Shown in pieces: positions 4,717-10,501 of a stretch of 64,000 nt of DNA (positions are counted from its first letter, which is position 1; every line of letters begins with the position of its first letter). A program made the position numbers and the translations under genes. The stretch spans positions 186,001 to 250,000 of the forward strand of contig NZ_JACHIF010000001.1 in assembly GCF_014203045.1 (NCBI RefSeq), given 5' to 3'. This DNA comes from Prosthecobacter dejongeii (GTDB lineage: Bacteria > Verrucomicrobiota > Verrucomicrobiia > Verrucomicrobiales > Verrucomicrobiaceae). The notes beneath the pieces are model-generated. The model searched no databases. It had not been told where the DNA came from and was given only the letters and a program-made list of their open reading frames with translations.

Positions 4717-4935
4717 CTAGTTACAGCCACATCCGCCCCCGCCGATTCCCCCGCCGCCAAAACTTCCTTCACGAGAAAAATAAGCGTGCTGTGTCATCGT
4801 CAGCAGCAGCGGATCCAATCCTGGATCCATGAGTGGATCTGCAAAATGTTTCCGTTCATACGGCAACACCCGGACAAAGTGCTGACTGCAACTGCAAAGA
4901 GTGGAACCAACGAGAACTAAGAGGAGCATTTTCAT
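4717..4935 (-). CDS. DUF4266-like small lipoprotein with Gly-rich GCGCN tail
   Basis: A 72-residue protein. The N-terminal hydrophobic stretch ends in a lipobox-like LCSC, with Cys16 as the likely lipidated residue. The mature part is short: YERKHFADPLMDPGLDPL, then HAYFSREGSFGGGG and a final GGGGCGCN carrying Cys69 and Cys71. This matches the pattern I recall for DUF4266, where a charged/proline segment and an aromatic-S-(K/R)-E motif precede a Gly-rich CGC tail. It is last in the operon, 17 bp after the ApbE-like gene. The family is known to co-occur with DUF3570 and ApbE genes, but its function is unknown. The CGC tail could bind a metal or be modified. No canonical ApbE flavinylation motif (Dxx[S/T]GA[S/T]) is visible. 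Confidence 0.8.
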   Translation of the reverse strand: MKMLLLVLVGSTLCSCSQHFVRVLPYERKHFADPLMDPGLDPLLLTMTQHAYFSREGSFGGGGIGGGGCGCN

Positions 4936-4952
4936 GACAGGTGGATAGGTAT

Positions 4953-5927
4953 TCAGGGGGTGCCGCGGACCTGATGCTGGATAAAATTGGAGGTAGCTAT
5001 TTGGCCTTGCTCATTCTGCAGGCAGGCTTCCACGCCTGGGGCTGACTCGGCAAAGACCATGCCCTCACGCCAACCCAGAACGAAGATGGAGGTGGCATAG
5101 ATTCCTGCCACGACGCAACTGGATGCAAGCACGGTCACCGCCCTTAACCCGTGCCTCACGGGCCATCCCGTACGAGGATCTAAGATGTGGCCATAGCGCT
5201 CCCCCTCGTGCTCAAATCTTCGGGCATAGTCACCGCTCGCACACACCGCATACCCAGAGACAGCTAGCCCGCCGAGGCAATTCTCCGGGCGCACACCATC
5301 TTGGATACCGACATGCCAGAAAGGATGCTGACCATTACCTCCTAGAGCGAAGATGTCACGACCAAGGTCCACCAGAATATCGAGAATGCCATGCCTCTTC
5401 GCGATAGCGATGACCTGATCCACCGCATGTTCTTTCCCAAATCCCCCAAAGTCTAGGCCCATACCTTCACGCGGAAGAAAGATTCCTCCTGGGCGACGCT
5501 GAACATCCTGCCAGCGAGATAAGTCTCGTGCTTTTTCAACATCCGTTTTTGCAGGCATACTCTCACGGGCTTTTTTCCAATCCCACACCCGCAGCAGAGG
5601 CAGCATCGCAGGATCAAGGATACCATTCGTGAGGCGATACATCGCCTCTGCCAAGTCGAGGATTTGATCCATTTCCGCATCCGTCTCGACCCAAGATTTA
5701 CCAGCAGCAGCATTGATCCGGGAGACTAGTGAATCTGGCCTAAAGTGGGAAAACTTAGCTTCGAAGGCTTGGATCCAGCCGAGCGCTTCCGCAACGAATT
5801 GCAGAGCTATTTGATCCGACGACTGCCGAAACAGTAAGGCGCAGTTTGTCCCTAGGGCTTTGAATTCCACACGCCGCACTCCATGGGCATCAGGCGGTAA
5901 CGGGGGACTGGGTAAAAACGTGCGCAT
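4953..5927 (-). CDS. ApbE-like FAD:protein FMN transferase (atypical)
   Basis: A 324-residue ApbE-family protein. Family features visible are ALGTNCALLF near the N-terminus, FSHFRPDSLVSRINAAAG, the GLDFGGFGKEHAVD segment (around residues 175-188), SGDYARRF and YGHILDPRTGWPV. ApbE enzymes transfer FMN from FAD to Ser/Thr of exported redox proteins. Two departures stand out. There is no signal peptide or lipobox at the N-terminus, although most ApbE proteins act outside the cytoplasm. The conserved Asp of the C-terminal ADA(L/W)xT metal site is replaced (VVAGIYAT). It lies 10 bp after the DUF3570 gene and before the DUF4266 gene. A diverged enzyme acting on the linked small lipoprotein is possible but unproven. 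Confidence 0.88.
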   Translation of the reverse strand: MRTFLPSPPLPPDAHGVRRVEFKALGTNCALLFRQSSDQIALQFVAEALGWIQAFEAKFSHFRPDSLVSRINAAAGKSWVETDAEMDQILDLAEAMYRLTNGILDPAMLPLLRVWDWKKARESMPAKTDVEKARDLSRWQDVQRRPGGIFLPREGMGLDFGGFGKEHAVDQVIAIAKRHGILDILVDLGRDIFALGGNGQHPFWHVGIQDGVRPENCLGGLAVSGYAVCASGDYARRFEHEGERYGHILDPRTGWPVRHGLRAVTVLASSCVVAGIYATSIFVLGWREGMVFAESAPGVEACLQNEQGQIATSNFIQHQVRGTP

Positions 5928-5937
5928 GGCCTAAAGT

Positions 5938-7122
5938 TCAAAACTGCACCGTCACCCCCAAGGTCCAGATGTTCGCCTTCGGGTAAGCAGCAGCAGGTGC
6001 GCGCTCACTCGCAGCTCCGGTTCCCCTCATTGCATAGTGCTCATAGGTCAGAGATAGGGCCACATTTTCACTCAGTTGGCAGCGCCCCTTCACGCCCAGA
6101 CTGAGACTGCTCAAGGATGAAAGCCGATAGTCAGCCGAGTAATGGGGACCACGCCCCATGGGATATTCCTGTGGTCTATTCACACCGCTCACCTCGTCCA
6201 GCGTGTTGTAAAAAAAATCCGCCGCCGTCTGCTGGTAATGGCGGAAGAATGGGGTGATCTGAAATTTGTTTCCCAACTTCTGCCGCCATTCGATCTGCAG
6301 GCTGTGCGAAAGGACGCCATAGTCGTCATAAGAGATCCGGCTCACGGCATCCAGGGACGCTTGAAAGCGTGTTAAATAGCGAGTGGCCTGCAGCTGGAAA
6401 ACACCGCGCAGACGACTGTCGGGTCGGTTTTCACGATACAGAATATCCACCGGAATGTCCGTGATGACACCACCCACCGGCAGCGTAAAGATGTCGGTTC
6501 GCTGGATGCTCTTATAGGAGTCGTTCAGATAACCTTCGGCATACCCCACCGTCATATTTGCCGTGAGAATGGTTTTTTTGTCCAGCAATTGGCTGAGACC
6601 GATGAAGGCATCATAGCTGGTTTTATCCTGTTCTTCGAGCCCCACCACACTCACAAGATCACTCACATAGTTGAGCCCTAAACTGAGCGTGGTATTCTTT
6701 TTATTGAACTCCCACTTGTCGCTCAAGGCGATGCCCCGAGACAGATAGTCAGACTCGTCACTTTGCGAGATTTCTAACTCGATCCTGTGATCGCCGACCT
6801 GCTGAGAAAGCGCCACCAGCACACCATTTCGCACATCCTCCAAATCCGCCAAAAACGGCTGGAGACTCCCCGGTTGCGCCCCTGTTGGGGAGGCCCCTGA
6901 AATGGCATCGCGCAGCAATTGAAAACGCAAGCTCGTGTCCGGAGTGAATTCTACCTCTCCTCGGAAATACCACGACTCCACCTGAATGCGTCCGTCGGAT
7001 TCATCATACAACTGATAGCTCGTGTCTGAGCGAAACCCCTCCGCAGCGGACAGCGATAAAGTCGGCAGCAGGAGCGGCAGAGCCGACACTGAAGCTAAAG
7101 GGGGCGGCAAAAAACGCGACAT
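5938..7122 (-). CDS. DUF3570 outer-membrane beta-barrel protein
   Basis: A 394-residue protein with a signal peptide (LPPPLASVSALPLLLPTLSLSAAEG). Many alternating amphipathic strands follow, and it ends in an aromatic residue (TLGVTVQF), the usual signature of an outer-membrane barrel recognised by the BAM machinery. The early motif DGRIQVESWYFRGEVEFTPDTSL, the DAISGASP stretch and SDYLSRGIALS match what I know of DUF3570, a family found beside ApbE and DUF4266 genes. Its role is unknown; a pore or surface display function for the small lipoprotein would fit the operon. The gene is 21 bp downstream of the Ig-domain gene and 10 bp upstream of the ApbE-like gene. Confidence 0.85.
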   Translation of the reverse strand: MSRFLPPPLASVSALPLLLPTLSLSAAEGFRSDTSYQLYDESDGRIQVESWYFRGEVEFTPDTSLRFQLLRDAISGASPTGAQPGSLQPFLADLEDVRNGVLVALSQQVGDHRIELEISQSDESDYLSRGIALSDKWEFNKKNTTLSLGLNYVSDLVSVVGLEEQDKTSYDAFIGLSQLLDKKTILTANMTVGYAEGYLNDSYKSIQRTDIFTLPVGGVITDIPVDILYRENRPDSRLRGVFQLQATRYLTRFQASLDAVSRISYDDYGVLSHSLQIEWRQKLGNKFQITPFFRHYQQTAADFFYNTLDEVSGVNRPQEYPMGRGPHYSADYRLSSLSSLSLGVKGRCQLSENVALSLTYEHYAMRGTGAASERAPAAAYPKANIWTLGVTVQF

Positions 7123-7143: not shown

Positions 7144-9393
7144 TCAGCGGGCTGGCTCACCACGAACCTGAATCAGTTCCACCCGACCCGAGAGAATGGC
7201 GGTGCGATTGGCCGCTTGTCCGGCAGTCGGCAACTGCGGTAACAAGAAGCTTCCCTCAGCCCTGAGGTCTCCATCGGAACCGCGAATCACTTGCCCCTTA
7301 AAAGCCACTTTATTGCGGGTAAACGTCCCATCGACCAAGCTAAATTGACCGCTCAGCGCCCCTGTAGCCGGATTCAAATTCAGTGAGACCCGACCCGCAT
7401 TCTCCAATGCAGGAGGCAGCAAGAATTTCCGCGTTTCCGCCCAGACCACATCCAGGTCTGGATTGGTCAAAGACGTGTGGATTTCCCCTTCAGAAAAATG
7501 CAGACTTACCACACCCGTTTCGGGCAGTCCCAGCACCACATGTCCACGGCTTGCAGGGGCTAAGTAGGCCCCTTCGACCTCCACATTCACAGGTCCGAAC
7601 CCTCCCGGATAAGCCAGCTCATTCACCGCAGGTTTCCGCCAAGTCAGATCGCCACGAATGACATTGCCAAAAAAAGGCACCTGCGGCTCTTCGGTAAGAT
7701 TCATCTCCCCCTGAAGAGAACCGCCGCCACGGTAAAGTCCCGTGTATAACCAGAACTGGCCCTGCGAACCAAGAAAAGCAGCCGAGGAAAAAGCCTGCCC
7801 ATCAGCCGTCCGGCCCAAGACAGTCAAGCCACCATTCGATCCCACGATCATGGTCAAAAATCCTGTCCCTTGGGGCAGCGTGACCACTCCATGATCGCCG
7901 ACATCAGCCAGTCGGAGAGCTGCCGAATAATAACCTGCCAGTGACTCCGCAGGCCGGAAAGTGGCGTGGTACCTTGCCCTCCAGCCATTCACCCCCGCTG
8001 TGCCTAGCACACCCGTCATCTCACCGGTCTCGGCATTCAGAGAAAGCTGCAAGTCTAGGCCCCCAACCTTAGCCGAGATCTGAGGTGCGGCAGCTTCCAG
8101 CCGACCTTTGACTGAATACGCCACTGCCCCGGCACGAGCAGCCCCGCTTGAGGAGGTCGTAGAAGCCCTGAGCGTGTATGAGCCATTCGAAGTCGTCGTC
8201 AGAGAAACAAAACCACCGAGCCCTCGATTGCTAGCCGCATCCCGCTGGATCAATCCACCAAAAGTGCCCACCAATCCTTGGCTTAGAGCCTTTACCACCA
8301 AAGGAAAGCTGACAGGCGGGCTACTGCTACCACCACGAGCAGCCCGAACCTGCACCTGGAAGACGCCGGAAACCTCAGGCCGTCCTGAAATACGCCCCGT
8401 CACCGCATCTGCACGCAGACCTCTCGGCAGGCCCGTGAGGGTGAAGCGACTCGGCTCTCCGACAGCCGTCACCGTGTGAGAATAAGTGGCTCCCACAGTC
8501 GCGGCAGGGAAAACCGCATCCACAACCTCAGGCGGGGCTGGCTGCACGGTAATCTGGGCTGTCCGGGAATTCACCGTCGCCAAATCACTGCTTACCCTTA
8601 CCCAATAGTTCGTTGTCGTTTCTAGGGCTGGAGTCGTGAAGGTATTTTCATCCCCACCCACAGGCAGCGATTCATCCCCGCTCACCCCCTCATACCATTG
8701 GTAGCTCAAAGCCTCACTGCCACTGGCTTGGATTGCCAACGTCACTGACTGGCCAAACGCCACCGTTCGTGAAGTCGGCTGGACCGTGATGCTCACTCCA
8801 GCTTGGCCTGTGATGGAGACCGTAAAATTCCGGCCAAATCGGTCGGGGCCATGCGTCGCTACCAACCGGATCGGAAACGTTCCAGACTCCAAAGGTTTCC
8901 CTACCAACGCAGCGATACCTTCCCCGCTGTTGTAGGTGAGCTCCATGCCTGGCACCTCCCCACTTTCAAGCTCCCACCCGAGCGGTGGTGTCGGCGTGCC
9001 GGTGATCTGGAAAATGGCCGTTAGATCTCCCCCTACTCGCCCCGTAACGGTGGAGGCACCTCGGCTCGGTGCGAGTTGCACCAGAGTCGTCGCTCCAGCG
9101 ACTCGATCATAAGCTCCCAGCCCGGCCACCACCGTGATCGCGGTCCGGAGACTCCCAGATGAAGCCAGTGTGGAAATCAAATTCACCTCTGGCAGCAGCA
9201 CCTGCGCCGCAGGTGTCCGCTGAAACAGCAGCAAAAGAGAGCTAGCACGGTTTAAAAAAAGCCGGGATTTTTGGACAACCGAACTGCGAAATAGAATGCT
9301 GCAGACTCCGGCTTTTCCACGGTTAGAGCCATGCTTCAGACTGGGAGCAGCGAGACAGCGTAAAAAAAAATGTATGGCGCTCATATCCGCCAT
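7144..9393 (-). CDS. Secreted Ig-like/He_PIG repeat protein
   Basis: A large beta-rich extracellular protein. It contains an Ig-like domain (ITVQPTSRTVAFGQSVTL, then YQWYEGVSG and TNYWVRVSS), followed by a putative-Ig He_PIG domain (GATYSHTVTAVG, LPRGLRADAVTGRISGRP). After these comes a long series of verrucomicrobial beta repeats with G-x-F-x-G style strands. The start is uncertain. The frame is open up to 9540, but that would overlap the divergent gene at 9518. An ATG at 9393 is given here; a hydrophobic stretch LLLLFQRTPAAQ near 9240 looks like a signal peptide whose true start may be a TTG nearby. It lies just upstream of the DUF3570 gene and may be the first gene of that operon. The function is unknown; surface adhesion is possible. 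Confidence 0.7.
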   Translation of the reverse strand: MADMSAIHFFLRCLAAPSLKHGSNRGKAGVCSILFRSSVVQKSRLFLNRASSLLLLFQRTPAAQVLLPEVNLISTLASSGSLRTAITVVAGLGAYDRVAGATTLVQLAPSRGASTVTGRVGGDLTAIFQITGTPTPPLGWELESGEVPGMELTYNSGEGIAALVGKPLESGTFPIRLVATHGPDRFGRNFTVSITGQAGVSITVQPTSRTVAFGQSVTLAIQASGSEALSYQWYEGVSGDESLPVGGDENTFTTPALETTTNYWVRVSSDLATVNSRTAQITVQPAPPEVVDAVFPAATVGATYSHTVTAVGEPSRFTLTGLPRGLRADAVTGRISGRPEVSGVFQVQVRAARGGSSSPPVSFPLVVKALSQGLVGTFGGLIQRDAASNRGLGGFVSLTTTSNGSYTLRASTTSSSGAARAGAVAYSVKGRLEAAAPQISAKVGGLDLQLSLNAETGEMTGVLGTAGVNGWRARYHATFRPAESLAGYYSAALRLADVGDHGVVTLPQGTGFLTMIVGSNGGLTVLGRTADGQAFSSAAFLGSQGQFWLYTGLYRGGGSLQGEMNLTEEPQVPFFGNVIRGDLTWRKPAVNELAYPGGFGPVNVEVEGAYLAPASRGHVVLGLPETGVVSLHFSEGEIHTSLTNPDLDVVWAETRKFLLPPALENAGRVSLNLNPATGALSGQFSLVDGTFTRNKVAFKGQVIRGSDGDLRAEGSFLLPQLPTAGQAANRTAILSGRVELIQVRGEPAR

Positions 9394-9517
9394 GTGAGGA
9401 GGCCCTTGTTTTTTATTCCCAAGGAAAATCATCGGCCATGAGGCGAGTAAACAAGCACATGAGCGCCATGATTCACCTCTGGACATCTCGCACCGCATCA
9501 TCTCAAATACGCATCGC

Positions 9518-10501
9518 ATGATTCGGACCGCCACCCTCACCGCCGCCCTGGCCTGCCTTTGCAGCGGGACGCACCTCCTCGCTCAGGACACCCCACCTCC
9601 GGCTGCCCCTGCTGCTGCCACGGCGGAGAAAGCTGCCTTTGAATTTAAGGATGGCGACCGCCTCGTCCTCATCGGCAACACCGTCATTGAGCGCGAGCAA
9701 CGCTATGCGACCCTTGAGCCACGCCTCGCCCTGGCCCTTGGCGAAACCAAGGTGACGATCCGCAATCTCGCCTGGAGTGGGGATACTGTTTACGGCCACG
9801 CCCGCTCCTACTTCGGCCCCCCAGAAGAGGGGCTCGAACGCATGGCCAAGCACCTGGAACTGCTGAAGCCCACCGTCGTCCTGCTTTGTTACGGCTCTGA
9901 AATGGCCTTCGAAGGCCTTAGTGACCTCCCCCGTTTCCTCACAGGCTACCGCAATCTCCTCGCCCTCATCCGCAAGCAGGCTCCAGGCGTCCGCATCATC
10001 ATCGCCACACCACCGCCTCTGGAAAATCTGCCGCCACCGATGCCTGACCTGACGGATGCCAACAAAAACCTGTCCAGCTTCCGTGATGCCCTGCGCAAGT
10101 TCGCCGGCTCCCAAAACACCTATTTTGTGGACTGGTTCGAGCTCATGGGCGGCATGCCCAAATCTGGTCAGACCGCCAAGCCCCTTACCGAAAACGGCGT
10201 CCACTACACCCGCGAAGGCTATCAGAAGCTCAGCACCAAGCTTGTCCAAGGTCTCGGCCTTACCCCACCGCAGATCTCCGAAGCTGAACTCGCCAGCATC
10301 CAGAAAGAAGTCCTGAAAAAAGACGAACTCTTCTTCAACCGCTGGCGCCCCCAGAACGAGACCTACCTCTTCGGCTTCCGCAAACACGAGCAGGGCCAGA
10401 ACGCCAAAGAAATCCCCATGTTTGACCCCCTGATCGACCAGGCCGACGCCAAGATCCAGGAACTCAAAGCCGGGCTCCTCTCCAGCAAAAAAACGCTGTA
10501 A
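9518..10501 (+). CDS. SGNH-hydrolase-like secreted protein with altered catalytic motifs
   Basis: A 327-residue protein with a clear signal peptide (TLTAALACLCSGTHLLAQ) and a Pro/Ala linker. The fold reads as SGNH/GDSL hydrolase: DGDRLVLIGNTVIERE as block I, LAWSGDTV, then a PTVVLLCYGSEMAF strand in the GxN position and NGVHYTREGYQKL as block V. The nucleophile Ser of GDS is replaced by Thr (GNT) and the Asp of DxxH by Asn. In the PVC group this subfamily often precedes haem-binding or dehydrogenase domains. It may be non-catalytic or use other residues. The C-terminal ~80 residues after the SGNH fold are helical and charged (KKDELFFNRWRPQNETYLFGFRKHEQ). It is transcribed divergently from the Ig-repeat gene. 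Confidence 0.82.
   Translation: MIRTATLTAALACLCSGTHLLAQDTPPPAAPAAATAEKAAFEFKDGDRLVLIGNTVIEREQRYATLEPRLALALGETKVTIRNLAWSGDTVYGHARSYFGPPEEGLERMAKHLELLKPTVVLLCYGSEMAFEGLSDLPRFLTGYRNLLALIRKQAPGVRIIIATPPPLENLPPPMPDLTDANKNLSSFRDALRKFAGSQNTYFVDWFELMGGMPKSGQTAKPLTENGVHYTREGYQKLSTKLVQGLGLTPPQISEAELASIQKEVLKKDELFFNRWRPQNETYLFGFRKHEQGQNAKEIPMFDPLIDQADAKIQELKAGLLSSKKTL

Follow-up and report, generated by a model that had tools for sequence, protein, structure and literature searches.

The apbE gene of the window (the whole 64,000-nucleotide stretch of Prosthecobacter dejongeii DNA analysed here) encodes a protein whose sequence, fold, and gene partners identify it as an ApbE. One described feature of the family, the catalytic Asp, is missing from it, as it is from the entire clade to which the protein belongs. 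We put at roughly 0.6 the probability that this protein is an active, cytoplasmic FAD:protein FMN transferase with a metal site rebuilt around Glu166, and that it modifies Ser78 of the adjacent DUF3570 protein before the latter is exported. We infer both the binding of metal by Glu166 and the occurrence of flavinylation before export; FMN transfer has been reported for a presumed relative from Chlorobium luteolum and is predicted by analogy for the window ApbE. Owing to the clade-wide loss of the catalytic Asp, we class the protein as an ApbE variant rather than as an ordinary member of the family.

The apbE gene and its partners

The features of the gene group are as follows.

4953..5927, minus strand: apbE, predicted non-exported FAD:protein FMN transferase of the swapped-carboxylate clade (PF02424 and AlphaFold model)
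5938..7122, minus strand: DUF3570 protein, predicted 18-strand outer-membrane barrel and presumed flavin acceptor (PF12094, E 4.5e-69)
6889..6909, minus strand: DAISGAS acceptor motif, DUF3570 residues 72-78, with Ser78 the predicted FMN site ([S/T]GA[S/T] motif)
4717..4935, minus strand: DUF4266 lipoprotein (lipoprotein-like start) with C-terminal CGCN, a CXC motif (PF14086, E 6.5e-18)

The apbE reading frame (324 amino acids) matches PF02424 from position 2 to 265 of the 266-position profile, with an E-value of 6e-68 and a score of 229.7 bits against a cut-off of 25.6. Its AlphaFold model (mean pLDDT 95.8) superposes on Ftp (4xdt) over 310 residues with a Z of 37.7 and an rmsd of 2.3 Å, and it fits 19 ApbE/Ftp/FmnB entries with Z between 32.1 and 37.7. 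The order of genes on the minus strand is Ig-like/He_PIG (9540-7144), DUF3570 (7122-5938), ApbE (5927-4953), and DUF4266 (4935-4717); the last of these is the small lipoprotein that the original prediction had placed beside apbE. DUF1549/DUF1553 and DUF1501 genes lie nearby on the opposite strand and are taken to be unrelated to the group. The large Ig-like/He_PIG protein (7144-9540), which has an N-terminal LLFQRTPAAQ...PEVN stretch, accompanies the operon: its gene is upstream of DUF3570 in the window, and in several relatives it lies on the downstream side of the DUF4266 gene.

With the ApbE, DUF3570, and DUF4266 genes adjacent on one strand (4717-7122), the window group works like a DUF3570/DUF4266 flavinylation cluster. 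We do not class it as a complete DsbD-type cluster; no thioredoxin-like or DsbD gene was found among the seven scanned neighbours of apbE. PMC8238504 counts 316 clusters without DsbD. In a paralogous operon of the same genome, apbE and the DUF4266 gene have a redoxin/thioredoxin-like gene (L031:7568-8290) between them; in the window this gene is absent, and the corresponding gap is 17 bases (4936-4952).

Two side observations concern the partner genes elsewhere. The DUF3570 of the paralogous operon (L031:9069-10297, C1:1085068-1086296) is spread over two overlapping frames, one with the N-terminal part containing DAISGASPTG and the other with the barrel, and looks frameshifted, by mutation or by sequencing error. 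Further, two stretches (L087 and L092) hold DUF3570 and DUF4266 but no ApbE within 13 kb, and an ApbE encoded elsewhere in those genomes would have to serve their DUF3570 and DUF4266 proteins.

A lost metal-site Asp and a gained active-site Glu

The Asp in question has been described as belonging to the ApbE catalytic triad and as a Mg ligand on which activity depends. In FmnB, the two Mg ions have Asp301 as a common ligand; Ala187 and Ser304 coordinate one of the ions, Asn216 contacts Mg in the ADP and ATP complexes, and replacement of the Mg ligands by alanine strongly lowers or abolishes activity (PMC8906456). In E. coli Ftp, D280, T284, and the carbonyl of T166 hold the first metal (joined by D283 in the apo form), and E169, the equivalent of K165, holds the second (PMC4767422). 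A 2025 review lists three conserved residues for the ApbE centre, the Asp being one of them (PMC12052999). From these roles, loss of the Asp would be expected to inactivate an ApbE.

The original prediction held that the Asp had been lost from the window protein, where the site reads VVAGIYAT, and a gap-free alignment bears this out. The segment S-C-V-V-A-G-I-Y-A-T-S-I-F-V-L-G aligns with ...A-D284-A-L-A-T288... of T. pallidum Ftp and with FmnB such that Gly275 falls on Ftp D284 and FmnB D301. The Asp-Ser-His catalytic centre (Asp301-Ser257-His273 in FmnB) is consequently incomplete: Ser231 and His247 are kept, and the Asp is replaced by Gly275.

To place this change among relatives, 105 ApbE rows, pooled from several samples, were aligned. 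Fifty-seven combine G275 with E166, 46 combine D275 with G166, one has E166 and is cut before 275, and one (L044) has G275 with R166. We refer to the 58 rows with E166 as swapped and to the 46 as canonical. The codons of the relevant residues, all on the minus strand, are listed below.

5103..5105, minus strand: Gly275, where the metal ligand has been lost (Ftp D284, FmnB D301, E. coli Ftp D280), from alignment with solved structures
5430..5432, minus strand: Glu166, the acid gained in a GKE motif (canonical AKG/GKG/AEG); E in 58/58 swapped and G in 46/46 canonical rows
5091..5093, minus strand: Thr279, a metal ligand that is kept (Ftp T288, E. coli T284); T in 56/57 readable swapped rows
5355..5357, minus strand: Asp191, equivalent of FmnB Asn216 by residue count on the alignment; D in 58/58 swapped rows
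5187..5189, minus strand: His247, general base (V. cholerae His257, FmnB His273); H in all 58 swapped and all 46 canonical rows
5235..5237, minus strand: Ser231, catalytic-centre Ser (V. cholerae Ser241, FmnB Ser257); S in 58/58 swapped rows

Gly occupies position 275 in 58 of the 105 ApbEs, the degenerate L044 included; it is present in all 57 swapped rows readable there, and Asp is present in all 46 canonical rows. When the two classes (58 and 46 rows) are compared column by column, only 275 and 166 are fixed for different residues. By residue count on the alignment, window Lys165 corresponds to Ftp K165 and Glu166 to Ftp G166, and the numbers 159-170 coincide in the two proteins. Glu166 thus directly follows the active-site Lys165, in the first turn of helix 164-178 of the AlphaFold model, and it lies four residues past the position that, in E. 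coli Ftp and FmnB, contributes its backbone carbonyl to the first metal. The swapped rows show no acid shifted by a step within the original helix: none of their common residues at 274-276 or 278-280 is acidic.

An uncompensated loss of the Asp is implausible, given what alanine does at the Mg ligands of FmnB, a result that does not itself point to the compensating residue. Sequence comparison suggests that the metal carboxylate has probably moved to Glu166, which most likely supplies it alongside Thr279, Asp191, and the Gly162 backbone. The possibility that the original prediction named against itself, a metal-binding Asp supplied from elsewhere, is half borne out: the acid Glu166 is gained in the proteins that lack the Asp, and metal binding by it is the simplest reading. 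The literature searched, which covered few subscription papers, contained no description of such an Asp/Glu swap in an ApbE, and DUF4266 figured in a single paper of it.

Asp191 is the second candidate metal ligand, and it could, with water, replace the lost ligand, leaving Glu166 for some other role, such as contact with the acceptor peptide or with a basic residue nearby. We regard this arrangement as possible and somewhat unlikely. Asp191 is invariant, and its FmnB equivalent, Asn216, is the residue that meets Mg in the nucleotide complexes (PMC8906456); the DUF3570 acceptor motif also differs between the two classes, as would suit a Glu166 engaged with the acceptor. However, residue 191 is Asp or Glu in 45 of the 46 canonical ApbEs as well, and the new element is Glu166. 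As for a basic partner, a fixed Glu166-Arg190 salt bridge was ruled out, since residue 190 is Gly in 14 of the 58 swapped rows.

Distribution of the exchange

The exchange is not peculiar to the window. A paralogue in the same genome, 71% identical to the window ApbE, has Gly at 275, as do nine of nine orthologous stretches from relatives (L035-L043), and all 11 ApbEs from the own genome and close relatives (the window, L031, and L035-L043) are swapped. In the window's own phylum, PF14086 (DUF4266) was found in 42 of 387 genomes, and 40 further stretches were sampled. Thirty-five of these contain ApbE, with 37 ApbEs in total, 33 of them swapped (one cut before 275) and four canonical (L110, L111, L112, and L114); the other five of the 40 stretches lack ApbE. 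The exchange is also present in 14 of 14 hand-chosen stretches from Chlorobium and one relative, 13 of which were drawn from ApbE matches in 54 of 61 genomes, with one other added. Twenty stretches from other members of Chlorobium's phylum, drawn from 69 genomes with DUF4266 among 247 searched, yielded 19 ApbEs, all canonical, and one stretch without ApbE. Searches of plasmids gave no useful relatives, one returning 102 records, all below 60% identity, and another none.

All but one of the 58 swapped rows come from DUF3570/DUF4266 stretches, and ApbEs outside such stretches are canonical (23/23), with the degenerate L044 in addition. The converse, that every DUF3570/DUF4266 locus has a changed ApbE, was ruled out: 23 of the 80 ApbEs from DUF3570 or DUF4266 stretches are canonical.

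When the trait columns were left out of tree building, the canonical ApbEs were on one side of a branch with support of 99/97, and the swapped ApbEs, along with the degenerate, long-branched L044, were on the other. The swapped ApbEs form one clade, found in the window's own phylum and in Chlorobium. Because the swapped rows form one side of the tree, the perfect association of 166 with 275 represents one evolutionary change in the sample rather than many. Within this clade, K165, D191, S231, R236, and H247 are unchanged in 58 of 58 rows, and T279 in 56 of the 57 readable there. This invariance points to an enzyme under selection, and an isolated mutation or a pseudogene was ruled out, as the change is clade-wide and the rest of the site is invariant.

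A separate case is the ApbE at L044:7451-9604 (G005), a second, degenerate copy in a 718-residue frame. Other residues stand in place of Lys165, His247, and Thr279, and both Glu166 and Asp275 are missing from this protein, a possible pseudoenzyme or remnant.

The presumed acceptor and the probable compartment of flavinylation

The original prediction had found neither a signal peptide nor a lipobox in the window ApbE, and we agree. The N-terminus (MRTFLPSPPLPPDAHGVRRVEF...) has no hydrophobic core and no lipobox, and so lacks the marks of an exported-lipoprotein ApbE. An upstream start adding a signal peptide, which the original prediction had named as a result that would count against it, is ruled out by the codons ahead of the gene (TAG GCC ATG), in which an in-frame stop stands two codons before the ATG. 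We infer that the compartment of the protein is the cytoplasm.

Signal-like starts were scored across the survey by a crude hydrophobicity test, corrected by eye. By this measure they occur in only two of the 57 swapped rows from DUF3570/DUF4266 stretches, both doubtful, and in 14 of the 23 canonical ApbEs of such stretches. Swapped ApbEs are not alone in having lost export, because the other nine canonical ApbEs also lack a signal peptide; a strict rule equating the swap with loss of export was ruled out on the same ground. That bacteria with the same kind of locus use ApbEs with signal peptides (the 14 of 23 canonical rows) would favour periplasmic action, reached in the window protein without a recognisable signal. 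We consider this improbable in view of the missing upstream start codon, the lack of any hydrophobic segment, and the absence of a signal from nearly the whole clade.

The structure predicted for the acceptor bears on the same question. The DUF3570 model (pLDDT 91.8) has outer-membrane barrels as its best structural matches (Z 15.6-22), and it places Ser78 where strand 3 ends, next to a loop of 11 residues. In known outer-membrane barrels, both ends face the periplasm. If this is assumed for the window DUF3570, the outer-side loops of the model total 92 residues, as against 25 for the inner turns, and Ser78 would lie near the outer side of the barrel. A periplasmic enzyme could then hardly reach Ser78 after the barrel had folded. 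This poor accessibility, taken with an enzyme that has no signal peptide, suggests modification before export. In the mechanism that we propose, the FMN half of FAD would be carried onto Ser78 of the DAISGAS motif, most likely on the unfolded DUF3570 precursor before it crosses the inner membrane and inserts into the outer one; the flavinylated DUF3570 would presumably then work with DUF4266 in electron transfer.

The acceptor motif differs according to the class of the enzyme. Residue 76 of DUF3570 is Gly in 57 of 57 proteins beside swapped ApbEs (two broken reading frames included), where the motif is mostly [D/N]xx[STA]G[AS][ST]P, and in none of the 23 beside canonical ApbEs, where it is Ser or Ala throughout (SSAS, TSAS, SAAS). 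The class of the enzyme and the form of its acceptor motif are thus coupled, once more on a single branch. The notion that the motif lies elsewhere in canonical loci was dropped, because SSAS/SAAS-type motifs occur at the same place. As a further observation, DUF3570 proteins in several stretches (L075, L080, L084, L088, L094, and others) have long Ser/Pro/Ala-rich insertions soon past the flavinylation motif, and some of these insertions hold additional SGAS- or AGAT-like motifs.

A relative with reported activity

According to PMC8238504, the cognate ApbE of C. luteolum DSM 273 (ABB24423) flavinylates the DUF3570 of that strain (ABB24424) upon co-expression in E. coli, a host with an ApbE of its own. 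The [S/T]GA[S/T] motif was shown to be in use, and Ser-to-Ala changes at both sites were needed to abolish flavinylation. By the methods of that paper, the DUF3570 was prepared in the manner of a construct lacking its signal peptide, and most of it was found in the pellet. It thus seems possible, at least in E. coli, for a chain that is not exported and is largely insoluble to be flavinylated.

We sought the corresponding locus in our survey. Chlorobium genomes were reached via the FMO protein, and one of them (G481) carries a DUF4266-DUF3570-ApbE-DsbD locus (L229) that is its single DUF4266 locus. The ApbE of L229 has GKE at 164-166, AAG at 273-275, and no signal peptide; its DUF3570 has two SGAS motifs, with Ser at both motif ends. 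The gene order agrees with that of the accessions ABB24423/ABB24424. The L229 genome is almost certainly that of C. luteolum DSM 273, an identification made from these features.

This relative has a direct bearing on what the window ApbE does. The original prediction of a cytoplasmic enzyme with a changed chemistry stands as regards a non-exported protein with an altered metal site; its second part is not needed, because the presumed C. luteolum ApbE, with both residue changes, is reported to flavinylate DUF3570. It could be argued that the loss of the Asp, one of three catalytic-centre residues whose conservation has been described (PMC12052999), killed FMN transfer and left a binding or chaperone partner of DUF3570; the alanine results from FmnB (PMC8906456) would agree, and L044 demonstrates that a truly degenerate relative exists. 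We give this little credence: unlike in L044, the other catalytic residues are all invariant in the 58 swapped rows, the presumed C. luteolum member is reported to be active (PMC8238504), and the flavinylation motif is kept in the DUF3570 of swapped loci. That the protein is cytoplasmic and catalyses some other reaction, for example FAD pyrophosphatase activity or a different transfer, is very unlikely even though the metal site differs from those of the aligned wild-type solved ApbEs, since the one residue said to tell FAD-binding transferases from FAD pyrophosphatases (Tyr versus a polar residue; PMC4767422) is aromatic here (Phe62 by alignment count, and F/Y in 57 of the 58 swapped rows), and FMN transfer is reported for the presumed relative.

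The reading of an active cytoplasmic transferase with a rebuilt metal site has several implications. A natural clade without the Asp, one member of which is reported to be active, means that the described ApbE site is not the sole solution, and the two-residue exchange at 166 and 275 is open to direct testing. If flavinylation precedes export, covalent FMN must pass the export machinery, a question that is absent from the usual picture of a periplasmic ApbE. We offer more tentatively, as a possibility short of an expectation, that the entire clade has moved its carboxylate between helices (from the Asp284 position to Glu166) along with a Gly in the acceptor motif, that these enzymes may act in the cytoplasm on the barrel precursor, and that the covalent FMN may be exported and end near the cell-surface side.

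Comparison with known systems

The window ApbE and that of C. luteolum, if the genome is correctly identified, have in common the Gly275/Glu166 pair, the lack of a signal peptide, and DUF3570 and DUF4266 neighbours, yet they are only about 32% identical. The presumed C. luteolum locus has DsbD and redoxin, and its DUF3570 has two SGAS sites, compared to one in the window DUF3570. More generally, the DUF3570/DUF4266/thioredoxin-like/DsbD clusters described in PMC8238504 resemble the window in having ApbE, DUF3570, and DUF4266 side by side; that paper describes two [S/T]GA[S/T] motifs in DUF3570, whereas the window protein has the single DAISGAS.

In fold, the window ApbE closely resembles T. 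pallidum Ftp (TP0796; 4IFU and 4XDT, Z 37.6-37.7) and L. monocytogenes FmnB (7ESA, Z 36.1), and the Ser, His, Lys, and Thr-ligand positions are common to all three proteins. Unlike the window ApbE, Ftp and FmnB are exported/extracytosolic, keep Asp284 and Asp301, respectively, and have Gly where the window protein has Glu166. A precedent for an ApbE without a signal peptide is the cytoplasmic ApbE of Klebsiella pneumoniae, which serves a soluble fumarate reductase (PMC12052999). That ApbE modifies a soluble enzyme, whereas the presumed target of the window ApbE is an exported barrel.
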